A DNA stretch of 38,675 nt, taken from positions 1 through 38,675 of the IMG/VR virus record IMGVR_UViG_3300025131_000141; one strand, 5' to 3'. Made by a program: the position numbers and the translations under genes. Below the pieces are notes generated by a model, which did not search any database, was not told the DNA's origin, and saw nothing but the letters and a program-made list of their open reading frames with translations. Positions 13,507 to 37,830 of the stretch are shown here, in pieces (positions within the stretch are counted from its first letter, which is position 1; each line of letters opens with the position of its first letter). The DNA comes from a virus.

Positions 13507-14091
13507 GGAAGGACGTATGGTCAGCCGGCAAGGGGGCATCCCTTGATACATATAACTGGTCACTTGCTAATGATTGGCGCTTTGCTTTGAATGAAGCAGC
13601 TATGATTGTGCCTCGTTGTATAGGGGCCTTCGCTGTTGATATCGAATCAATGTGGAATATAGTAAAATATAAAGCCAATCAGTGTACACTGTTTATTGAT
13701 CCCGAGTATGTATGTACGGTCAAGAGTGTTGAGAAACTGAAGAATACCAAGTTAGAGGTGAAGCAATACCATGAGTTACGCCAAGGCATTCACTACAAAA
13801 CGATCTTTGGTGTAGTTAAGCCAGCGATACAATCACTATACTCCTTCGGTGCAAGAAGAATACATTTCATTGGTTTCGACAGTATGGAGGGCTACCATAA
13901 AGGAACGATGGATGGATGGATGTAACGTAGCGAATAGTCTAAGACTATTTAATTGCAAAGTACCAAGAAATAATAATTACTACCATTTCAGTATTCATGT
14001 ACTTGCTATGCTTAGGACACTTGAAATGGAGGGTATCTGGCATCTACCGAGTGGCGACCTAACTTTGGAGTTTCTCCGTGAGCCTGAATAA
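13488..14091 (+). pseudogene. MptE-like / DUF115-like protein, copy 2, frameshifted at a (GATG)4 repeat
   Basis: The ATG at 13488 has an ideal GGAGG. The frame runs to TAA 13923-13925 (145 residues) and matches copy 1 through VWSAGKGASLDTYNW, LNEAAMIVP, GAFAVD and RIHFIGFDS, though GPSL has become GASL. Past the stop, the +1 frame continues the homology: RNNNYYHFSIHVLAMLRTLE aligns with TNNDFFKVINTRLVENLDKM of copy 1 and ends at TAA 14089-14091. The frame changes exactly at four GATG units (13907-13922). Loss of one unit would give a full-length protein of about 200 residues. It may be a phase-variable OFF state, a dying copy or a sequencing error. Confidence 0.7.
13907..13922 (+). repeat. 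(GATG)4 tetranucleotide repeat
   Basis: Four perfect GATG units sit inside the second MptE-like gene, directly before its in-frame TAA. The downstream homology is in the +1 frame, so three units (or six) would keep the reading frame open and four close it. Repeats of this kind are prone to slipped-strand mispairing. Confidence 0.9.
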
Positions 14092-14995
14092 ATTCACATC
14101 AACAGCATTGTTGCCGACTAAGGTGCTACGTAAGCACCCAATCGACAAAAACAATCATATTATCCCATACCATATACAATTGTATCCAACGCATAAGTGC
14201 AATCGGAATTGCCACTATTGTGTGCTCAGTAAACTGGACAGAACAGTCGAGATGCACTTTGATGAGATATGTGCATTACTGCGTCACTTCTGGTTCTTAG
14301 GCACACGTGCCGTAACGTTGACCGGTGGTGGTGAACCAACACTACACCCTAAATTCTGGGAGATAGTTGCCTTTTGTTACAATGAAGGCATTGAAACAGG
14401 GCTCGTAACCAATGGAGATTTCCTCCATAATGCGCCAAATATAGCGCATACTCTCACTTGGATTCGAATGTCAGTTAATGACATAACTAAGGTGCCTAAA
14501 GCTATCGAGAGCCTAATTAATATCGACGTTGGACTGTCTTTGGTTATTACTGATCGAACACCACTTTGCCAAGTGGAAGCATTGTGTGAACTAGCTAATG
14601 CTTACAAGCACGTAACGCATGTACGCTTTGCGCAGGATGTGGTGCATTTGCCAAAAACGATCTTTGAAGAGGCGAAGAAAGTGGCCGCAGGATTGACGGA
14701 TAAGGCTGTCTTTCAAAACAGAGACAGTCCAACTGTAGGTACTAGGCAGTGTCTAGTTGGTCAGCTTAGACCGCTGATTACAGCCAATGGTGATGTCTAC
14801 CCGTGCTGTGGTATTCAGTATTCTACCCGGTGGCAAGGTAAGTACCCGGCCAAGTATAAGTATTGCCACTGGACTGATTATGAACTAGGAATGAAGGCAT
14901 TCGACGGAAGTATTTGCGAACGCTGTGATTTCATGAACTATAATACGTTACTTCAAGCCATGACAGAACCGGTTGAGCATGAGGAGTTCATTTGA
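14078..14995 (+). CDS. Radical SAM enzyme
   Basis: This 305-residue protein is started at GTG 14078, with GGAG eight bases upstream; no upstream ATG is available and the N-terminal part fits. THKCNRNCHYCVL holds the CX3CX2C [4Fe-4S] motif (Cys41, 45, 48). GGGEPTLHP near 90 is the SAM-binding 'GGE' motif. C-terminal cysteines (QCLVGQLRPL, YPCCG, ICERCDF) look like a SPASM/twitch-type second cluster site, which favours a modifying enzyme over a lyase. It lies between the MptE-like copies and a glycosyltransferase, so a role in building or modifying a sugar or peptide substrate of that cassette is inferred. Confidence 0.85.
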   Translation: MSLNKFTSTALLPTKVLRKHPIDKNNHIIPYHIQLYPTHKCNRNCHYCVLSKLDRTVEMHFDEICALLRHFWFLGTRAVTLTGGGEPTLHPKFWEIVAFCYNEGIETGLVTNGDFLHNAPNIAHTLTWIRMSVNDITKVPKAIESLINIDVGLSLVITDRTPLCQVEALCELANAYKHVTHVRFAQDVVHLPKTIFEEAKKVAAGLTDKAVFQNRDSPTVGTRQCLVGQLRPLITANGDVYPCCGIQYSTRWQGKYPAKYKYCHWTDYELGMKAFDGSICERCDFMNYNTLLQAMTEPVEHEEFI

Positions 14996-18876: not shown

Positions 18877-21537
18877 TCACACCTTAGATTTAAGAAACCC
18901 ATTAACTGGAATTAGTGACTTCTCGCCTATCTTTGACACGTTACAACTATGTGCTGTTCCTTTCGGTATGATGTTCCCAATATAATGACTACTGTCCTTA
19001 CCGCGGCCCTTAGGATACTTCTCTGGATTTAGCTCCTTACCGAACTTACGTTTCGTCCAGTTCAGTTCCGCAGTGGCGTCACTCGTCGCCAGGAAGAGGT
19101 CAAACAGATCACCATACTTAGTCGCCATGCCAGGAGCATATGAACATTGTTCCTCCAGGAATATCTCCACTTCGTTCCGATTCATGCCCTGTAATGCCTC
19201 CTTATGGGCACTTGTAATAGTAGGTAGATTAAGTCTACCAGTCGCTTCAGGCAGCTCAAGCCGCTGTATAGCGGCTAAGAAATCAGATGCTTCTTTCTCA
19301 AGTAACGATAGTAATGTTCGTTTGCTTATCTCCTCTGTTAGGTCATCCACAAAGATTATGACAATACGTGTATCACCTCTGAAGACTGGGCAGTAACTGT
19401 GATGATTTGCACACTGTACCCAATGCGTTGTATTCTTAGTATGGTAGGGGGCATGATACATCGGTCGAATCAATAGCTCCCTTCCTGTTACCCAATCTTT
19501 TATTCTATTGTGAGCGATCTTATTCGTTCCCAGATTAACCTCCTCTACTACACAAATGATTGCACCATCAAGTTCACCATTGAAATTGGAACTACTAGTT
19601 AAGGCTTGATCAGCGCGCTGATACCCTTTCGTCACTAAAAGTGATAGTGCCTCGTGAAAGATACTCTTTCCACTATTCTCTGGGCCATAAAAGAATAGAT
19701 AAGGTAGTGGCTCTGTGGGTTGCTGAAAGATACTCGCTATCCAACATTTAAGATAATCGCTCCCGGTTAGGATACCTGCATTTTGACACCACGCATTCTC
19801 TTTAACTGGACCGTCTAAATTTTCCCCACAGTGATCCAATATACGGAGCCAATTTGGGTAATTTAGTTCCTCTTCCTGTGTGGGGTGAAAACGAAATTGA
19901 GCAGCGTTAAAGTTCCATTCACGGTCACCAGGATACTCACTTTGAAAGGGCTTATTAACAAGTGACCATGGACGCTTAATCGCGTTACCGATGATTGACG
20001 TTACTTCATGGCTGTTTAATCCCTCCGCAGCTAGAGCTGCACGAATATGCACTAAGGGCTCACCTTTCCATGTTTCATCTGTGTGGATCATCCAGCCGGC
20101 GTCACTACCTGTTTGTTCAACGATGTGGCGTATGAAATCATCATAGTTCCCCATCTCTAATTCAGTTGAGGGTGATATCTGTGGTTTGGCGACTTTTGTC
20201 CATACTTTAGGCTTACGCAACCATGTCCCCATATCCTCTATTCTGTCATTCTTATCCCCTTCCACTTCAATGACTAATCGGCCATCCTTGGCTTGTTTGA
20301 GCTTAGTTTCACGTCCCTGCTGCCGCATTCCGACCTCAAAGAACACACCCATCATCTTCGCCGCAGCTGCCGCTGAATTAGTGTCCAAGAAGACGAAGCC
20401 ACCAGACGGATCTTCGATACCTTCGAATGCTTTGCATGTGGTTATGAAATCAGGCTCCCGATTATAAAAACATCTAGTCCATCCTTGACCGTCTTGATCC
20501 CACGATATGTCCTCCTGTACCCCCATACCGTATCTACGCACAACCCAAGCTCCCTTCCTAATGGGGAAGAGAAAGCAGTTGTGGGCGCTACTGTGGGAGC
20601 TATTGGTTCTGAATATACCCTTGAAAGAGAGTGCTGTGAAGGCATCGGCGAGATGTGACGTGTGCGTGACCAGCATATGGTGATCGCTATCCCACCACCA
20701 TACACATTCATTAGTATCTAACCATGCTATCAGTGCCTTGTGAGGTTCCTCAAGAGCCGCCTTAGTAAGTTGACCGTATAAGTCAGCAAAAGCAGTCTTA
20801 TTCTTAATTACACTAGGGGCATTCTTGCGTCGGTTACCCTTCACTACTTCGAGATGGTCACGCCAATTGATTGGAGGATCAATCTGCTCAGTTGATTCCT
20901 TCATCAATGTGAGTCCGTCGGTGCCAGCCATCTTTCTATGCCACACCCACAGAATACCGCCGCAAGCATCTACCTTCGACTGGAAGTCAATGGATGTAAG
21001 CGCTGCCAATTGACCAAGGACAGCCCTAGCCAGAGCAGCATGTTCAGTGTGGTTAACTGTAACATTGGGGTTGAGGTAGACGTAGATATGCAGGCCATTG
21101 CCAGAAGTAGATTTGCGAAGCTCAACCCAGGGTATATCAGATACGGCATCTATTATCTCCTTAATCTCTATATCGGTTAGCCCTTGCTTGTGACTGATTA
21201 TATCATCAAAATCAAAGGCTACCCACTCACTGCATTCCAATACCCAATTCCATCCTGTCAGACCTATGCCCTCAGCATGTACACTTAGGTCAAAGCGTAT
21301 TTCTGTATCAGTATATTCGGGTTCTGACATGGCCTTATACGGTATGCGTATCGGTTTCCATGTCGTTAAGTGGTCGGTCCATCCCTGCCACTTGTGTCCT
21401 AAATACTCGCCTTCAATACGCTCACCCTCACCTCGGGCTACATTTACCTGTACCTCCATTTCATGGCTATACTTCGATGCTAATTCAGGCAGTGTTTCAT
21501 TCTGTAAGAATAGCTGGATTGCCTTGGTCTTATTCAC
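18877..21537 (-). CDS. AEP-type primase fused to SF3/D5-like helicase
   Basis: This 886-residue protein has an N-terminal archaeo-eukaryotic-type primase: WVAFDFDDI (Asp109 and Asp111) and STSGNGLHIYVYL (145-156), the 'sG.G.H' motif of primase-polymerases. A long linker leads to a C-terminal ATPase with Walker A FYGPENSGKS (about 613-620), Walker B AIICVVEEVNL (about 660) and the sensor stretch CANHHSYCPVFRGDTRIVII, as in D5/SF3-type replication helicases. It therefore probably primes and unwinds phage DNA at the origin. It is the largest minus-strand gene and lies about 1 kb from the divergent control region. Confidence 0.85.
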   Translation of the reverse strand: MNKTKAIQLFLQNETLPELASKYSHEMEVQVNVARGEGERIEGEYLGHKWQGWTDHLTTWKPIRIPYKAMSEPEYTDTEIRFDLSVHAEGIGLTGWNWVLECSEWVAFDFDDIISHKQGLTDIEIKEIIDAVSDIPWVELRKSTSGNGLHIYVYLNPNVTVNHTEHAALARAVLGQLAALTSIDFQSKVDACGGILWVWHRKMAGTDGLTLMKESTEQIDPPINWRDHLEVVKGNRRKNAPSVIKNKTAFADLYGQLTKAALEEPHKALIAWLDTNECVWWWDSDHHMLVTHTSHLADAFTALSFKGIFRTNSSHSSAHNCFLFPIRKGAWVVRRYGMGVQEDISWDQDGQGWTRCFYNREPDFITTCKAFEGIEDPSGGFVFLDTNSAAAAAKMMGVFFEVGMRQQGRETKLKQAKDGRLVIEVEGDKNDRIEDMGTWLRKPKVWTKVAKPQISPSTELEMGNYDDFIRHIVEQTGSDAGWMIHTDETWKGEPLVHIRAALAAEGLNSHEVTSIIGNAIKRPWSLVNKPFQSEYPGDREWNFNAAQFRFHPTQEEELNYPNWLRILDHCGENLDGPVKENAWCQNAGILTGSDYLKCWIASIFQQPTEPLPYLFFYGPENSGKSIFHEALSLLVTKGYQRADQALTSSSNFNGELDGAIICVVEEVNLGTNKIAHNRIKDWVTGRELLIRPMYHAPYHTKNTTHWVQCANHHSYCPVFRGDTRIVIIFVDDLTEEISKRTLLSLLEKEASDFLAAIQRLELPEATGRLNLPTITSAHKEALQGMNRNEVEIFLEEQCSYAPGMATKYGDLFDLFLATSDATAELNWTKRKFGKELNPEKYPKGRGKDSSHYIGNIIPKGTAHSCNVSKIGEKSLIPVNGFLKSKV

Positions 21538-22313: not shown

Positions 22314-22504
22314 GGACGTTCTCCATGCAATATCTCCGCTACACGTTGGTTGATGTAGCTTCTGTTTATGTAATCACTCACGTGATGGTAAGACGATTTA
22401 CATGTAGGGATAGTCGGCCCACTGTATGGCAGACTGTACATCCTACGCATGTGCTCCTTCGTGTACGTGCGCCTCTTTTTAATAAGGTTAATGCACGCGC
22501 CCAT
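22310..22504 (-). CDS. First gene of the minus-strand operon, hypothetical
   Basis: This 64-residue protein is started at ATG 22504, with an ideal AGGAGG eight bases upstream; an in-frame GTG 39 bases earlier has no such site. It is basic, with INLIKKRRTYTKEHMRRMY and YHHVSDYINRSYINQRVAEI, which reads like a small DNA-binding domain. It is the first gene after the divergent control region, so a regulatory or early role is plausible but unproven. Confidence 0.5.
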   Translation of the reverse strand: MGACINLIKKRRTYTKEHMRRMYSLPYSGPTIPTCKSSYHHVSDYINRSYINQRVAEILHGERP

Positions 22505-22556: not shown

Positions 22557-22570
22557 TGATTGTGTAATCA
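22557..22570. promoter_or_regulatory. Palindromic operator site 1
   Basis: TGATT GTGT AATCA, outside the left arm of the inverted repeat, on the side of the minus-strand operon. Confidence 0.75.
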
Positions 22571-22581
22571 AAAGCGCAGAC

Positions 22582-22595
22582 TGATTACGAAATCA
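22582..22595. promoter_or_regulatory. Palindromic operator site 2
   Basis: TGATT ACGA AATCA, 25 bases from site 1 and 23 bases from the left arm. Confidence 0.75.
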
Positions 22596-22618
22596 AATGC
22601 TGACATTTATTAGCTAGT

Positions 22619-22860
22619 AAATGATTTGATTACACGGCGTGTAGGACTTTTACCTACTATATTCCCAAAAAACCGAAAAACGGAACTATGTAGTTCCTAA
22701 TACTTCTCCAGCACTCTCTTTTCTATCTCTCTATTATGTAGTAGGACTATATTTCCTTTGTAGTAAAGTATGTAAGTAAGAATAGAAGAAAGTCCGATTT
22801 TGCGGCTTTTTGGGAATATAGTGGTATGTAGGTTGAAAGCGTCGTGTAATCAAATCATTT
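22619..22860. repeat. Large imperfect inverted repeat (about 240 bp)
   Basis: The outer arms are perfect: AAATGATTTGATTACACG at 22619-22636 and its reverse complement at 22843-22860. Inner arms at 22651-22675 and 22803-22826 share ACTATATTCCCAAAAA and nearby CCG...CGG blocks, at almost the same distance from the outer arms (20 and 21 bases). Between them lie about 125 A+T-rich bases with no gene and a small palindrome, GGAACTATGTAGTTCC (22682-22697). Each inner arm carries an outward-facing TATAGT that could be a -10 element. Confidence 0.85.
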
Positions 22861-22870
22861 TCGACATTAT

Positions 22871-22884
22871 TGATTATGCAATCA
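22871..22884. promoter_or_regulatory. Palindromic operator site 3
   Basis: TGATT ATGC AATCA, 10 bases after the right arm. Together with the preceding T, TTGATT (22870-22875) followed after 17 bases by TGTAAT could alternatively be read as a weak sigma70-like promoter. Confidence 0.75.
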
Positions 22885-22886
22885 CT

Positions 22887-22900
22887 TGATTCTGTAATCA
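22887..22900. promoter_or_regulatory. Palindromic operator site 4
   Basis: TGATT CTGT AATCA, starting 16 bases after site 3, with the same symmetrical core. Confidence 0.75.
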
Positions 22901-22913
22901 CTTATTAACCTGG

Positions 22914-22927
22914 TGATTATGTAATCA
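22914..22927. promoter_or_regulatory. Palindromic operator site 5
   Basis: TGATT ATGT AATCA, between site 4 and the minigene SD. Confidence 0.75.
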
Positions 22928-22950
22928 AGTAAGTACATAGGAGGAACCTA

Positions 22951-22959
22951 ATGCGTTGA
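22951..22959 (+). other. Met-Arg-stop minigene in the leader of the ParB-like gene
   Basis: A perfect AGGAGG (22939-22944) stands six bases before ATG CGT TGA, a two-codon reading frame. A second Met-Arg-stop (ATG AGG TGA) follows at 22968-22976 without its own SD. They lie in the leader of the gene that starts at 23016 and could act as a translational or drop-off control element. Confidence 0.45.
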
Positions 22960-22986
22960 TACTTACGATGAGGTGAGTGTGAGTGT

Positions 22987-23000
22987 TGATTGTGTAATCA
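22987..23000. promoter_or_regulatory. Palindromic operator site 6
   Basis: TGATT GTGT AATCA, ending one base before the AAGGAG that serves the ParB-like gene, so a bound protein could block translation signals or the leader. Confidence 0.75.
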
Positions 23001-23015
23001 GAAGGAGAGAGAACG

Positions 23016-24053
23016 ATGTCTGACGAAGCGACGATTATTCCGACAAGTAAGCTCAAGACGGTGTCCGTTGATAGGTGCGTGGCATCACCCACTCTTATGA
23101 GGGAAGTGGACAAAGAGAGTGAGGAATTCATCGGGATCTGTGACAGTATTCGGCAAGAGGGATTTATCTCAGCGGTCACGGTTAGACCGGCAGAACGGGG
23201 GCAGAAAGATTACGACTATTATGTCGTTGATGGTCTTCACAGATTCCTCGCCGCGCAGACAGTTGGTATGACTGACATTCCCGTTGTCATTCGCAACATC
23301 GACGAAGCGGAGGCTTTGAAGGTGATGTTGATGGGCAACATCCACAAGAAGGATGCGAAGCCTTTTGAAGAGGCTAAAATGATTCGGGCAGTATTGGCGA
23401 ATGAGCCAACTATGACGATCACCGACATGGGACAGTCCCTCGGTAAGAACGTTATTTACATCCGTAAGAGGCTCAAGCTCGTTGCCAAAATCACGAATCC
23501 TGAGATTATGAAAGAAGTGGATTCGGGTAAAATCAACCTGAATAACGCTATCGAGCTGTCACGTCTGCCTGCTGCTGATCAGGTTGCCATGTTGGCCGAT
23601 GCCAAGACCATGTCTTCACAGGAATTTACTGCGAATGTTGAATCGCATCTGACTGAGGCTCGTAAGGCCGCCAACAAAGGTGAAAAAGCCGCACCTAAAT
23701 TCGAACCCCATTTGATTCTGCAAACAAGGAAGAAACTCCGTGAGGAGATGGAATCTCTTACAGCAGGTCATGCCCTCTGCGCTGACCTCAAGACCCCTCT
23801 TGAGGGCTACGCTGTCGCCTTGAAGTGGATTCACTCTATGGACCCATTGACCTTGGAAGAAAGACAGGCGAAGTGGGAAGAAAAGCAACTACAAAAGGAG
23901 CAAGACAAACAGCGAAGGACGATGGAAGCATCGTTGAGGAAGACCGAGAAGACGCGGAAGGAGTTGGCAGAAGCGGAAGCATCAGCCCAAACCGCAACTG
24001 ATTGGCTCCAGAAGCACAGTAACGAAATCGCAGCAGCAGCAGTGAACAGTTAA
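23016..24053 (+). CDS. ParB-like nuclease/DNA-binding domain protein 1
   Basis: This 345-residue protein starts at ATG 23016, with AAGGAG eight bases upstream. The N-terminal 110 residues are a ParB/Spo0J-like domain: RQEGFISAVTVRPA, YYVVDGLHRFLAAQTVGMTDIPVVI (the 'vdG.hR..Aa...G...ip..v' core) and MGNIHKKDAKPFEEA. A helix-turn-helix region follows (TITDMGQSLGKNVIYIRKRL). The last 120 residues are a charged coiled coil. The protein may bind the palindromes just upstream of its own gene, which would give autoregulation, partition or origin control; that link is inferred from proximity. Confidence 0.8.
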   Translation: MSDEATIIPTSKLKTVSVDRCVASPTLMREVDKESEEFIGICDSIRQEGFISAVTVRPAERGQKDYDYYVVDGLHRFLAAQTVGMTDIPVVIRNIDEAEALKVMLMGNIHKKDAKPFEEAKMIRAVLANEPTMTITDMGQSLGKNVIYIRKRLKLVAKITNPEIMKEVDSGKINLNNAIELSRLPAADQVAMLADAKTMSSQEFTANVESHLTEARKAANKGEKAAPKFEPHLILQTRKKLREEMESLTAGHALCADLKTPLEGYAVALKWIHSMDPLTLEERQAKWEEKQLQKEQDKQRRTMEASLRKTEKTRKELAEAEASAQTATDWLQKHSNEIAAAAVNS

Positions 24054-25248: not shown

Positions 25249-27125
25249 CATTGGCTACAACACACAAGCGTCTCGCAACTATTACTCGAATAAACAACAG
25301 ATTATCATTCGATTTCCGCTATGATCTTGGAATCAAAGATCACATTAAGGCCCAATCAGGGGCTCGCTTTGATTGGACGAGTAACATGTGGAGTTTCGAT
25401 ATTACTCCACATAATATGTTCCAGCTTGCCTACCTTCTACGTTTGAATCCACCAGACCCAAACTCGGAACTACCTCTCGGTTTCAATCCATACGCGCTAT
25501 GGGAGTCCCCTACCTTGGGACTCACTTACGAGCGGCCCCTCTACTCCCATCAAAAAGCCATGGTCGAGCACGGCATAGCGCACCACTATGTCGTTTTCGC
25601 GTGTGAAATGGGTACTGGTAAGACTCTTTCTGCCATCGAAATGATGGAGCGCATTGAGGGTGAATGCTGGTATGTCGGTCCCAAAGCAGGCGTGTATGCC
25701 GTCACACGTGAGTTAAATAAATGGAAGAGTAAGGTGCGCCCACGTATGTTAACATATGAGGGTATGAAGAAGGTACTCAGTCAGTGGGATGGTAGTAAGG
25801 CACCACGAATGCTCATCTTCGATGAGTTTCACAAGATCAAGAATGAGACTGCCCAACGCAGTAAGGCAGCACGTCATCTTGCCGATGCCATCAGACGAGA
25901 ATATGGTCAGGATGGTTTCATAATCGGAATGAGTGGTACGCCGGCACCGAAGTCACCTTTGGATTGGTGGTGGCCTTGTGAAGTGATTGCGCCGGGGTTT
26001 CTACGGGAAGGAACGAAGGGGAAATTCAAGCGTAGGCTGGCGTTTACTGAGAAGAGAGAAGGATTGTATGGTGCCTATGAACATCTGCTATCTTGGCGTG
26101 ACGACGAGGAAAAGTGTGAGGTATGTGGTCAATATTGGGAGGAGGCAATAGAGCATCACGTACCTGAGGTACCTGATTATCACATATTTAAGCATAGTAC
26201 CAATGAGGTAGCTGGGCTGTTTGAGCGGATGAAGGGATTGGTGCTAGTGCAGTTCAAGAAGGACTGTATACAGTTGCCTGAGATGACCTATGAGGTGATT
26301 AAGGCGAAGCCAACAGTCGATATGCTGCGGGCAATGCAGACTATAATCAATACGTCTACACGTGCAATTACAGCACTTAGCCGGTGTAGGCAACTGAGTG
26401 ATGGTTTCCAGTACGTAAAGGAAAAGGAAGGTGATGAGATATGTGCGGCATGTGATGGTAAAGGCAAAGGTATTCATCCTATTGCAACGGATACAGAAGG
26501 CCCCAATACAGACACTGTGTATGAGTTTGAGGAGGGACCATGTGCTGAGTGTAACGGAACAGGAAAACAGCCTATAATCGTCAGGAATGTAAAGGATGTG
26601 ACGTCGCCTAAAGATGAATACTTAATGGGGGAGGTAGAGAAACATGAAGAGATAGGCAGGCTAGTGATCTGGGCCGGCTTCCAAGCCAGTATCGAAAGGA
26701 TTACACAACTATTAGTAGCAAAGGATTGGGCGGTACTTAGGCTCGATGGCCGAGGTTACATTCCATACAATACAGATGCATCAGTCGAGACACTGATGAA
26801 TGAGATGGACTGGTCAACTAACCCAGGAACAATTGAGAAACTATGTATCGTTGCCAATCCACAGGCAGGAGGAACAGCCAATACTTTCACAGCTAGTCCC
26901 ACCGCTATCTACTTCAGCAATACATTCGATGCTGATGCACGGCAACAGAGCGAACCGCGTATCCATAGGATGGGCATGGACCCAAATAGAGGCGCGAGAA
27001 TAGTCGATATATTCTGCCTCCCAACGGATGTTTTAATCTATGATAACATCCACTTGAAGAAGAAACTGCAAGGTATGTCAATGGGGCAACTAAAGGAGCA
27101 ATTGTGGACCAGCAAACAGAAATAG
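25239..27125 (+). CDS. SF2 (SNF2-like) helicase with a DnaJ-type zinc insertion
   Basis: This 628-residue protein shows Walker A FACEMGTGKTLSAIE (about 120-135), DEFH box LIFDEFHKIKNE (about 193), motif III IIGMSGTPAPKS (about 229) and motif VI-like DARQQSEPRIHRMGMDP (about 567-583), so it is an ATP-driven SF2 translocase of the SNF2/SMARCAL1-like kind. The N-terminal 90 residues (FRYDLGIKDHIKAQSGARFDW) resemble the HARP-type domain that often precedes such motors. Between the two motor domains are CEVCGQYWEEAIEHH (about 293) and a DnaJ-like pair, CAACDGKGKG (about 403) and CAECNGTGK (about 435). It probably remodels DNA at replication or recombination intermediates. Confidence 0.85.
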   Translation: MQVTLATTHKRLATITRINNRLSFDFRYDLGIKDHIKAQSGARFDWTSNMWSFDITPHNMFQLAYLLRLNPPDPNSELPLGFNPYALWESPTLGLTYERPLYSHQKAMVEHGIAHHYVVFACEMGTGKTLSAIEMMERIEGECWYVGPKAGVYAVTRELNKWKSKVRPRMLTYEGMKKVLSQWDGSKAPRMLIFDEFHKIKNETAQRSKAARHLADAIRREYGQDGFIIGMSGTPAPKSPLDWWWPCEVIAPGFLREGTKGKFKRRLAFTEKREGLYGAYEHLLSWRDDEEKCEVCGQYWEEAIEHHVPEVPDYHIFKHSTNEVAGLFERMKGLVLVQFKKDCIQLPEMTYEVIKAKPTVDMLRAMQTIINTSTRAITALSRCRQLSDGFQYVKEKEGDEICAACDGKGKGIHPIATDTEGPNTDTVYEFEEGPCAECNGTGKQPIIVRNVKDVTSPKDEYLMGEVEKHEEIGRLVIWAGFQASIERITQLLVAKDWAVLRLDGRGYIPYNTDASVETLMNEMDWSTNPGTIEKLCIVANPQAGGTANTFTASPTAIYFSNTFDADARQQSEPRIHRMGMDPNRGARIVDIFCLPTDVLIYDNIHLKKKLQGMSMGQLKEQLWTSKQK

Positions 27126-28099
27126 TAGAGCAACCTGAGGTCGAGGTCGAGGTCGAGCAAAGAGTAGAGCGTCTTCTTCTCAGAGACATCTGGGTCAATG
27201 AGGAGTTCAATTGTCGGGGGAGAATCATACCGTCTGAGTGCGTAGATTTGGCTAAGGCGATTGAAGCTCAGGGATTGATTCAACCGGTAACGGTCTGTCC
27301 AGTTCCAAGCGATATGGCGAATCCACTTAATAAGAAGTACCTTCTTGTTTGTGGTTATCGACGCGTCCTGGCTATGCACAGGATACTGAAATGGGAACGT
27401 GTGCCCAGTGTAATCTCGACTCGCGTTGACTCCCTCAGTATGGCTATGGCATACAATCTGAGTGAGAACCTGAAGCGAGAGGACTTGGACATTCTTCAGG
27501 AGGCTCTCGCAATTGCGAAGCTCAAAAAGCTCGCTGTGCGTCGGGATGCTATCATGGAACAGATGGGGGTGAGTAATGGTTGGCTCCAGATACGTGAGCA
27601 GCTATTGCAGCTACCTGTTGAAATCTTTCCCTCCATTAAAGCGGAATTCATCAATCAAACAGATATCCGCGAGCTATACACGATGCTCAGGCTAGAGGGA
27701 CGGGATGCCTGCTTGGAGATGGCTGGTGAAATACGGGAGGCTAAGCAAAAGGGCAATACTCGGATCAATAAAAGCAGTATCGAGATGGGGAAAAAGAAGA
27801 AAACGAAGAGGGCGAGAAAGAAGCAAGAGATGGTAGAGATGATACACCACTTGCTGGCTACCATCGGTGAAGAGACAGCTACGTTTGCCTTGGCGTGGGG
27901 CTCCGGTGAGCTGTCAATGGGTGATTTCGATACCAAGATGGTGCAGCATATACAGGCTCAAAACGCTATGTTGGAGAATATGAGAAAATACATCATAGCC
28001 ACAATGGAGGGTATTGCTGTTCCTGATGGTGTAACGGATGCGCTGATACAATGGATTGACGATCAAGAGCGTATCTATATTCAGTATGGGGATCTGTAA
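27104..28099 (+). CDS. ParB-like protein 2
   Basis: This 331-residue protein is started at GTG 27104, with AAGGAG just upstream, overlapping the helicase end by 22 bases. LRDIWVNEEFNCRGRIIP, LAKAIEAQGLIQPVTVCPVP, LLVCGYRRVLAMHRILKWERVPSVI and NLSENLKREDLDILQEA make up a ParB/Spo0J N-terminal domain with an intact 'GyRR..A' box. An HTH-like region (DAIMEQMGVSNGWLQIREQL) and a basic KKKKTKRARKKQ linker precede a helical end. It is the second ParB-like protein within 4 kb and may act on the same or similar sites as the first. Confidence 0.8.
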   Translation: MDQQTEIVEQPEVEVEVEQRVERLLLRDIWVNEEFNCRGRIIPSECVDLAKAIEAQGLIQPVTVCPVPSDMANPLNKKYLLVCGYRRVLAMHRILKWERVPSVISTRVDSLSMAMAYNLSENLKREDLDILQEALAIAKLKKLAVRRDAIMEQMGVSNGWLQIREQLLQLPVEIFPSIKAEFINQTDIRELYTMLRLEGRDACLEMAGEIREAKQKGNTRINKSSIEMGKKKKTKRARKKQEMVEMIHHLLATIGEETATFALAWGSGELSMGDFDTKMVQHIQAQNAMLENMRKYIIATMEGIAVPDGVTDALIQWIDDQERIYIQYGDL

Positions 28100-28428
28100 T
28101 GAAATATCGAAAAAGACCTATTGAGGCATCACAATGGAAGAAGAACGGTGATCATCCTAAGGATGCTTGTGAGTATATTCCTGTTGAAGAGGGTGCTGGT
28201 CTGGCTTTAACAGAGGGTAAAGTAGTTCGCTATTATAGAGACCCCTCACTCAACGGTCAGCTAGAATGCCCTCACTGTGGCCGTAAGTCTCATGATCATG
28301 GTTGGATTGATACACTTGAGGGTGGTCATACAGTATGTCCAGGTGATTGGATAATCACTGGCATCAAAGGCGAATATTACCCTTGTAAGCACAGTATCTT
28401 CATGCTCACATATGAGAGGGTCACATGA
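28099..28428 (+). CDS. Conserved small phage protein with a CxxC motif
   Basis: This 109-residue protein overlaps the previous stop by one base. KYRKRPIEASQWKK at the N-terminus and a C-terminal CPGDWIITGIKGEYYPCKHS with FMLTYERV form a pattern often seen in phage proteins. A metal site may be formed by CPHCGRKSHDH. I do not know a function; it belongs to the replication operon. Confidence 0.55.
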   Translation: MKYRKRPIEASQWKKNGDHPKDACEYIPVEEGAGLALTEGKVVRYYRDPSLNGQLECPHCGRKSHDHGWIDTLEGGHTVCPGDWIITGIKGEYYPCKHSIFMLTYERVT

Positions 28429-29396: not shown

Positions 29397-31720
29397 TCTA
29401 TGCTGACACAGAAACATGTGGACTATATGGTCCGATTGTGTTAATGCAGTGGGCTATCGATGATGGCCCAGTGCATATGCTCAATCCGTGGACCACTACT
29501 ATTGATACCACTATAGACTGCATACAGACTATTGTGGATAGTGATAGTGTGTGGTTCAATGTAGCATTTGATTGGTTCCACCTGTGTCAAATGTACACAA
29601 CACTGACATTACTAAGAGGACTACAGGGTAATTCAATTCCTATCATTGATGATTACGCAATCATGGAGGGCCAAGCTCGTGAAGTAGACATATGCTTAAA
29701 ACCAAAAGGCGTGTTCGACATTATGTTACACGCCAGAAAGGGTCCGTATCAGGCTTTAATGGATAGAAAGCCAATCAGGATCAAAAGAGTACCTCGCGTT
29801 CTAGCGCAACCATTAGCTGATAAGCTAACTGAGCTGATTAAGCTGAAGGATGTGCTCTTTGCTAAGAAGGCAGATAGTAGTAAGCGTTGGTCTGTACTGG
29901 AGGCAACCAACACACTTGGCGAGGTTGATGATGATTTTAGAGACCTGGAACTTAGCTTTGCCCCTAGTGGTGGACTTAAGGCTCTTGCCGTCGATGCTCT
30001 TGGTGCTACGGTGCAACATTATGTCGATATTGCTATTGATAGCCAGTTTCTACCTAAGGAAGTGGGCTACGCACCTTTCGCATTAGCGCCATACAAGAAG
30101 AATAAACGCTGGGTACAACCAAGGGTAGGCGACTGGAAAGGCAAATGGCCAGATGTAATCACACAGCATATCAGTCATTGGGAGAATAATCAACAAGCAA
30201 GGGAGTATGCAGAGCATGATGTAACCTATGTAAGGTCGCTATATAACTATTTTAAGCGCCCTGCTATTAATGACAAGGACAGCATATTGGCGGCTATGGT
30301 AGGTGCCGTTCGCTGGCGGGGATTCACACTCGATATACCTAAACTAAAGGCTCTACTTACGGCTAATCGGACAGCACGAGGTAAGCTAGTGCCGCTGAAT
30401 AGCCCACAGGTATGTAGGGTATACCTAGAGCAAGTGATGTCGGACACCGAAAAGATCGTTTTGATTGACAATGATAAGGTGACAACAAAGAGAACTATAC
30501 TAGAGGAAGTGGCACAGTGGACGGTCGATGAAGTGTGCGACGATTGCTATGGTGCCGGCTGCGACAAGTGTGTTGATGGCTTAATCAAAGGAACTGAGAA
30601 ACATAAGGCCGCTGTAAGAGCACAGAACATAGTTGATTACAGAAGACTGTGTCATGCTATTAATATGTTCGAGAAGCTGTTAACAGCGGGTAAGTTTCAC
30701 GCATCATTTGAGGTGATTGGTACTCTCAGTAGTAGGATGAGTGGTGGCGACGGTCTAAATGCGCAGGGGATTAATCACGCTAAAGATGTGCGAGAATGCT
30801 TCACATTAGCTAACAAAGGCCACGTACTCGAAGGAGGTGACTTCGACTCATTTGAGATTAGTATAGCTGATGCGGTCTATGATGACGATTGGCTACATGA
30901 GCAGCTACTGAGTGGAAAGAAACTACACGGATTAATGGGGGAGAATTTCTTCCCCGGAAAGAGTTATGATGAAATACTTTCGACTGATGGTTCGGTTAAT
31001 CAAGTGGATGATCTCTACAAAAGATCAAAGCAAGGGGTGTTCGCCTTGCTCTACGGAGGCACACCATACACTCTCCACATCCGAGTTGGCATTGCTACCG
31101 ACGTCGCAGAGGAAGCAGAACGAAGCTGGCTCAAACGATGCAAAGGATGGGGAGAAGCAAGAGCTAGAATCTTTGACAAATTCTGTACAATGCGCCAGCC
31201 TGGAGGACTTGGAACAAGAGTAGAATGGCATGAGCCAGTACAGTACATAGAATCAATCCTAGGCTTTAGGAGGTATTTCACTCTAGAGACACAGATATGT
31301 CACGCATTGTATAAGCTGGGTGAAGAGCCACCTGAGGAGTGGGTACGATTCCCTGTTAAGGTGACTAGGCGTGATCGAGAACAGACGGCAGGTGGTGCGT
31401 TGAGGAGTGCTCTCTTCGGTGCTGCATTCAAAATCCAAGCTAGGATTATGCGAGCAGCAGCTAATCATGAGATACAAAGTCCTGGTGGTGAGCTAACGAA
31501 GGAGGTGCAAAGTGATCTGTGGACGCTACAGCCGGCAGGCATTAACTCCTGGCATGTGCAGCCGCTCAATGTCCATGATGAGGTGAAGTCACCTTGCATT
31601 CCTTCATTATGTGGTAAACAAAAGGAGATAGTGGAAGCCTTCATAGAGAGGAGAAAGGCAACGGTGCCACTGTTGGCGATGGATTGGCTCACGGGACTTA
31701 ATAACTGGGGAGACAAATGA
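29393..31720 (+). CDS. Family A DNA polymerase with 3'-5' exonuclease
   Basis: This 775-residue protein starts at GTG 29393 (GTGA overlap; GAAGGG upstream). The exonuclease motifs are YADTET (Asp5, Glu7), WFNVAFDWFHL (about 53-63) and YAEHDVTYV (about 272). The polymerase motifs are A, GGDFDSFEIS (about 480); B, KRSKQGVFALLYGG (about 543-556); and C, NVHDEVKS (about 725). All catalytic Asp/Glu and the Lys of motif B are present, so it should be an active replicase with proofreading. A DnaJ-like VCDDCYGAGCDKCVDG insertion lies near 381, which is unusual. The motif A form DFDSFE differs from the usual DYSQIE. Confidence 0.9.
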   Translation: MIYADTETCGLYGPIVLMQWAIDDGPVHMLNPWTTTIDTTIDCIQTIVDSDSVWFNVAFDWFHLCQMYTTLTLLRGLQGNSIPIIDDYAIMEGQAREVDICLKPKGVFDIMLHARKGPYQALMDRKPIRIKRVPRVLAQPLADKLTELIKLKDVLFAKKADSSKRWSVLEATNTLGEVDDDFRDLELSFAPSGGLKALAVDALGATVQHYVDIAIDSQFLPKEVGYAPFALAPYKKNKRWVQPRVGDWKGKWPDVITQHISHWENNQQAREYAEHDVTYVRSLYNYFKRPAINDKDSILAAMVGAVRWRGFTLDIPKLKALLTANRTARGKLVPLNSPQVCRVYLEQVMSDTEKIVLIDNDKVTTKRTILEEVAQWTVDEVCDDCYGAGCDKCVDGLIKGTEKHKAAVRAQNIVDYRRLCHAINMFEKLLTAGKFHASFEVIGTLSSRMSGGDGLNAQGINHAKDVRECFTLANKGHVLEGGDFDSFEISIADAVYDDDWLHEQLLSGKKLHGLMGENFFPGKSYDEILSTDGSVNQVDDLYKRSKQGVFALLYGGTPYTLHIRVGIATDVAEEAERSWLKRCKGWGEARARIFDKFCTMRQPGGLGTRVEWHEPVQYIESILGFRRYFTLETQICHALYKLGEEPPEEWVRFPVKVTRRDREQTAGGALRSALFGAAFKIQARIMRAAANHEIQSPGGELTKEVQSDLWTLQPAGINSWHVQPLNVHDEVKSPCIPSLCGKQKEIVEAFIERRKATVPLLAMDWLTGLNNWGDK

Positions 31721-37373: not shown

Positions 37374-37402
37374 TTGACAAAAGCCCTCTCGCGTGTTATA
37401 TT
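37374..37402 (+). promoter_or_regulatory. Sigma70-like promoter
   Basis: TTGACA (37374-37379), a 17-base spacer, and TATATT (37397-37402) give a perfect -35 box and a five-of-six -10 box. It lies in the 117-base gap after the 36892 gene and points at the 37474 gene and the operon beyond. Confidence 0.8.
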
Positions 37403-37413
37403 AATAATGGGTG

Positions 37414-37436
37414 GATTACGCGCGGGCCGCGTAATC
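37414..37436. promoter_or_regulatory. Inverted repeat downstream of the promoter
   Basis: GATTACGCG (37414-37422) and CGCGTAATC (37428-37436) form a 9-bp inverted repeat around 5 bases. The right part continues as CGCGTAATCAAATCA, nearly identical to CGTGTAATCAAATCA in the right arm of the 22619-22860 repeat. It may be an operator or an RNA hairpin in the leader. Confidence 0.7.
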
Positions 37437-37468
37437 AAATCAAACGTGGGTGTGACCAGTATGGAGGT

Positions 37469-37482
37469 TGATTATGGAATCA
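37469..37482. promoter_or_regulatory. Palindromic operator site 7
   Basis: TGATT ATGG AATCA, of the same type as the six sites at 22557-23000. It covers the start codon of the 37474 gene and lies just after its GGAGG, so binding could block translation or transcription start. Confidence 0.75.
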
Positions 37483-37605: not shown

Positions 37606-37830
37606 ATGAGTGAGCAGAGTGTAATTATGCGTGGCATCAGGGATGGTCTAGAGGACGTGTGGATACGCTGTCACGCAGAGAATATCGTGGCGCTGCGCGA
37701 GATGCGCGAGAAGCTGAAGCCAATTAAGCGGGATTATATGCTCAACAGTACCCACCACAAAGAGCTATTTGTGTTAGCTTGCCAAATGGAACTGATTATC
37801 GAATCAATGGAGAGGGAGAGTATGGGATGA
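37606..37830 (+). CDS. Small helical hypothetical protein
   Basis: This 74-residue protein starts at ATG 37606 with GAGGTGG upstream. It is mainly helical, with IVALREMREKLKPIKRDYML and ELFVLACQMELIIESMERES. It overlaps the next ATG (ATGA). No family was recognised. Confidence 0.5.
   Translation: MSEQSVIMRGIRDGLEDVWIRCHAENIVALREMREKLKPIKRDYMLNSTHHKELFVLACQMELIIESMERESMG

Follow-up and report, generated by a model that had tools for sequence, protein, structure and literature searches.

A mirror-symmetric inverted repeat as a probable divergent control region with likely operators of a ParB-fold regulator, possibly merged with a replication origin, in a family of uncultured phages

Between two divergent operons of an uncultured phage lies a nearly symmetrical inverted repeat of about 240 bp, and this locus raises the question of whether such a repeat serves as a replication origin, as a centromere or as a pair of promoters, the three readings offered in a preliminary description. 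The window, meaning the whole stretch of 38,675 nucleotides analysed, is an IMG/VR virus record and an uncultured phage contig, and it shares 99.9% identity with a 49,947-base contig across the 11 kb compared. Judged from sequence, the description that fits the region best is a divergent control region that carries likely operators of a ParB-fold regulator and possibly includes an origin as well.

Geometry and conservation of the inverted repeat

The perfect outer arms and inner cores claimed for the repeat are present: the outer arms at 22619-22636 and 22843-22860 are reverse complements at 18 of 18 positions (95% when taken over 21 nt), and the inner cores at 22656-22671 and 22807-22822 pair at 16 of 16 (84% when taken over 32 nt). 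The near-symmetry also holds, with the outer pair centred at 22739.5 and the inner pair at 22739 and with outer-to-inner gaps of 19 and 20 nt on the two sides. At its full extent, the left inner arm (22656-22687, minus strand) is a putative promoter of the left operon and the right inner arm (22791-22822, plus strand) a putative promoter of the ParB-side operon. Each carries the outward TATAGT ascribed to it (22656-22661 on the minus strand, 22817-22822 on the plus strand), the TGATTTGATTAC elements lie further out where they had been placed, and the A+T-rich centre separating the inner cores (22672-22806) has a GC content of 36%. Two nested pairs of elements thus face outward from one centre, and the inner arms combine a matching TATAGT with upstream sequence that is specific to the phage. 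With a best inverted-repeat score of 19, the intergenic region exceeds its 20 shuffles, whose mean is 8.3 and whose maximum is 9. Inverted pairs of exact 14-mers no more than 400 bp apart occur at just two other places in the window, both of them short hairpins. Searches for structured RNAs and tRNAs gave no Rfam match and no tRNA match. An invertible switch was considered and rejected, as the centre is found in one orientation only among near-identical contigs and the window aligns with contig G001 as one piece; among other sets of near-identical contigs, duplicates of the intergenic region show no differences.

The inverted repeat is genuine, and it characterises the family as a whole instead of being peculiar to one contig. 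The family set comprises 80 related primase loci, and in all 71 loci with enough upstream DNA for the layout to be counted, including two added loci, a divergent ParB-like gene lies opposite the prim-pol-helicase gene, usually about 440 bp away. An inverted repeat that scores above all 20 shuffles of its own region is present in 46 of 54 distinct intergenic regions, with mean scores of 19.6 for the real and 8.8 for the shuffled sequence. Clear arms are seen in 30 distinct regions; there the left-right score is 24.4 within a phage and only 5.3 between phages, so it is the symmetry that is conserved and not the sequence of the inner arms. The conservation among relatives that the preliminary description proposed to look for is therefore found in the first respect and missing in the second.

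The adjacent ParB-like protein and the TGATT sites

On the left side, small minus-strand open reading frames lie between the intergenic region and the gene for an 886-aa prim-pol-helicase (18877-21537, minus strand) with DUF5906 and PHROG primase matches. Residues D109, D111 and H150 of this protein are invariant among relatives, and we take them to be AEP / prim-pol motifs. A terminator-like hairpin is present on the plus strand at 22446-22471, within the left-side small open reading frames. On the right side lies the gene for a 345-aa ParB-like protein (23016-24053, plus strand) that matches Pfam ParB_N at 3e-12. Its family profile matches Spo0J (9e-27), KorB (6e-15), Noc and ParB, and its predicted structure (pLDDT 91.7) matches the same ParB/Noc/KorB folds. 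Residues G73, R76 and N108 are invariant in the family, for which a CTP-dependent DNA clamp would be a candidate activity. Rightward of this gene follow a helicase, a second ParB_N protein (27104-28099, plus strand) and a family A DNA polymerase, and at least two ParB_N proteins occur in each of the 21 contigs searched, often some 4-5 kb apart. Annotated relatives give no DNA match to this phage, and their primase matches cover at most one third of the protein at less than 30% identity. The host signal consists of three MAG fragments only, which span three phyla. The structural-gene half of the window also encodes a radical SAM domain protein (14078-14995).

The surroundings of the repeat hold a feature that the preliminary description did not mention. 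The window contains ten copies of the palindrome TGATT-N4-AATCA, where base composition predicts 0.06, and six of the ten flank the repeat within about 450 bp (22557-23000). Two of these lie to its left, TGATTGTGTAATCA at 22557-22570 and TGATTACGAAATCA at 22582-22595, and four to its right, namely TGATTATGCAATCA at 22871-22884, TGATTCTGTAATCA at 22887-22900, TGATTATGTAATCA at 22914-22927 and a further copy of TGATTGTGTAATCA at 22987-23000, which is 15 nt ahead of the ParB-like start codon. Distal palindromes are found at 28344-28357, 29650-29663, 37469-37482 (TGATTATGGAATCA) and 37793-37806 (TGATTATCGAATCA); several copies apart from those at the 37.4-kb promoter described below sit within genes, and copies recur along the ParB-side operon. 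The 49.9-kb contig has 13 copies, none of them left of 22.5 kb. The outer arms are built from the same half-site as the neighbouring palindromes, arranged as an operator-like tandem TGATT-TGATT in the left outer arm (22619-22639, plus strand) and as its mirror in the right (22840-22860, minus strand). Both TGATT-N4-AATCA and TGATTTGATT are candidate sites of the ParB-like protein, which is the predicted and likely binder of the TGATT sites.

The motif is enriched on the flanks of relatives as well, with ATCAAATC/GATTTGAT present on the left flank of 27 of 52 regions and on the right flank of 26 of 52, where about one is expected. The GATTTGAT motif is absent from about half of the family, and some clades swap in another short repeated word, such as TGAG, GATG, GGTC or others. 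Operator type, in classes assigned by eye, clusters on the ParB tree, and the primase tree fits equally well at 10 changes each. Tree congruence was tried as a means of choosing between the ParB-like protein and the primase as the binder, and the equal fit leaves the trees silent on this point, so that the likely binder is named from proximity and fold. In one relative (L093, contig G010) the intergenic region extends to 1.6 kb, and its ParB side carries CCGGTCCCC-type repeats in about 16 copies.

Proposed divergent promoters and KorB-like control

Among the three original readings, a pair of mirrored promoter-plus-leader units is the best supported, in part. Across the family, TATAG is oriented outward in 83 cases and inward in 53, although -10-like matches come easily in A+T-rich DNA, and AGTCAG outward in 34 and inward in 4; the best -10 match within the clear arms of relatives is likewise better in the outward direction (p=0.004). 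Other promoter features do not follow this pattern, as a -35 TTGACA at a distance of 16-18 nt was not found in the inner arms, the search for a -35 common to the aligned arms yielded none, and the combined -35/-10 score slightly favours the inward direction. The twin-promoter claim draws further support from elsewhere in the same genome, where a canonical sigma-70 promoter (TTGACA-17-TATATT, 37374-37402, plus strand) is followed by an inverted repeat GATTACGCG/CGCGTAATC running into the same kind of tandem site, AATCAAATCA (37414-37442). The tandem site lies about 30 nt downstream of this promoter, with a palindrome after it, which ties the TGATT motif to a promoter. There is thus moderate confidence that the inner arms are promoters.

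On balance, the region is probably a mirror-symmetric control island in which divergent early promoters are combined with operators of a ParB/KorB-fold protein, and which possibly doubles as a replication-control site. The inner arms would act as divergent early promoters with one common recognition sequence, and the phage-specific upstream element would perhaps replace the -35. The adjacent ParB/KorB-fold protein would bind the TGATT sites in both leaders and the distal sites of its own operon, repressing or tuning both directions together, its own gene included, and would function in the manner of KorB, not in that of a partition protein of the ParABS kind. As the left operon encodes the replicative prim-pol-helicase, such an island would couple transcription to replication, and it may itself be the origin.

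The KorB protein of plasmid RK2 is a ParB-fold protein that can repress through operators both close by and distant, which are located upstream of promoters (PMC11790492). The phage region resembles the RK2 KorB-OB system in its inferred ParB-fold DNA binder, in several palindromic putative operators that are both clustered and spread, and in a link to the control of replication genes. It differs in that the TGATT sites lie downstream of the putative -10 and not upstream of the target promoter, no KorA was identified, the half-site is TGATT, the replicon is a phage and two ParB_N proteins are present. By analogy, the ParB-like protein may have a KorB-like mode of action. Many copies of one regulator site across a phage genome are also a property of the stoperators of Cluster A mycobacteriophages, which are asymmetric sites (PMC9283540), whereas the sites described here are palindromic and their likely binder is a ParB-fold protein.

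Replication, folding and partition as possible alternative functions

A possible but doubtful reading, which is compatible with the promoter reading, is that the inner arms form a bidirectional origin in which the neighbouring prim-pol-helicase recognises a pair of start sites, one on each strand; the need for a single enzyme to read both arms would then explain why they match within a phage. The only solved structure matched by the family profile of the prim-pol-helicase is the NrS-1 phage polymerase (8e-10, in the helicase region). The recognition sequence of NrS-1 is 8 nt long and occurs twice, once per strand (PMC7102993), and reads TTTGGTTA (PMC8718748), while in the plasmid RSF1010 the primase uses a single 40-nt ssi start site on each strand (PMC4434180). 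The phage region, where mirrored arms adjoin a prim-pol gene, is similar to both arrangements, with a prim-pol encoded by the replicon itself and a candidate recognition sequence that is present once per strand and rare elsewhere. In the five contig groups G001, G004, G005, G007 and G008, each strand carries the arm core once, with almost no other copies apart from one extra match at 2 mismatches in G007, and in a sixth group, G003, only one of three tested stretches is found once per strand; a unique promoter pair would, however, likewise give one core per strand, and the matching TATA elements suit promoters better than an origin.

The likeness to NrS-1 lies in the related prim-pol-helicase, in its helicase region, and in one site per strand with a suggested origin, and the arms differ from the NrS-1 sites in being up to about 60 nt long and phage-specific. 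The motif TTTGGTTA was rejected as a general arm element, being present in only 2 of 52 regions. The comparison with ssiA/ssiB of RSF1010, which shares an AEP primase and one start site per strand, is limited in that the phage region shows no ssi-type hairpin, carries flanking putative operators of ParB type and is expected to hold promoters in the same stretch. DnaA boxes are enriched in the intergenic regions of the family (9 in 41 kb versus 13 in 602 kb), with eight of the nine in one clade. The change in GC skew proposed as a check on the origin was not seen, as third-position skew in seven contigs reveals no replichore effect and no consistent difference between leading and lagging strands. 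The origin claim thus keeps its adjoining prim-pol gene, its single arm core per strand and the DnaA-box clusters of one clade, and lacks a replichore skew. Two to three exact DnaA boxes (TTATCCACA) are present on the primase side in loci L082, L087 and L095, all of one clade.

A broader combination is unlikely, in which the arms are both strand-specific start sites of the prim-pol-helicase and divergent early promoters, the two functions being gated by an orphan ParB-fold clamp at the flanks and each phage keeping its own private pair of matched arms. If the arms were twin prim-pol start sites, the family would provide many natural examples of how such replicons pick their start.

It is decidedly improbable that the arms are complementary for the reason that DNA or RNA must fold on itself as a cruciform or hairpin. 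The single-strand DNA fold of the intergenic region has a z-score of -9.2, and changes in both arms are seen between close relatives, with 6 concerted both-arm sites and 7 one-arm sites when L059 is compared with L104. Set against this, the arms are usually 50-200 nt apart and are imperfect in many phages, and the same complementarity would arise from two copies of one binding site or from gene conversion between the arms. The least probable function is that of a partition centromere at whose palindromes the ParB-like protein would load. The protein does have a ParB fold with the ParB_N and HTH domains, and there are palindromes next to its gene, but a ParA-type ATPase (PF13614, PF01656) is absent from all 21 contigs, some of which are possibly incomplete, no tyrosine integrase was found in them, and the palindromes recur along the ParB-side operon.

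A survey from 2025 reports that orphan ParB-fold proteins are widespread on mobile genetic elements including phages, with a range of roles whose exploration has just begun (PMC12704722). The region described here adds one orphan ParB-fold family, from about 50 uncultured phage lineages, whose candidate cognate sites change clade by clade, which makes binding and specificity directly testable.

Within the leader of the ParB-like gene, positions 22939-22959 contain a strong AGGAGG and, after it, a minigene of two codons, ATG CGT TGA. A GGAGG with a start codon behind it that meets a stop codon either immediately or one codon on is present in 8 of 62 leaders, where 0.26 are expected, and the form start-Arg-stop is found in six of these eight. 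The arrangement resembles the bar minigenes of lambda.
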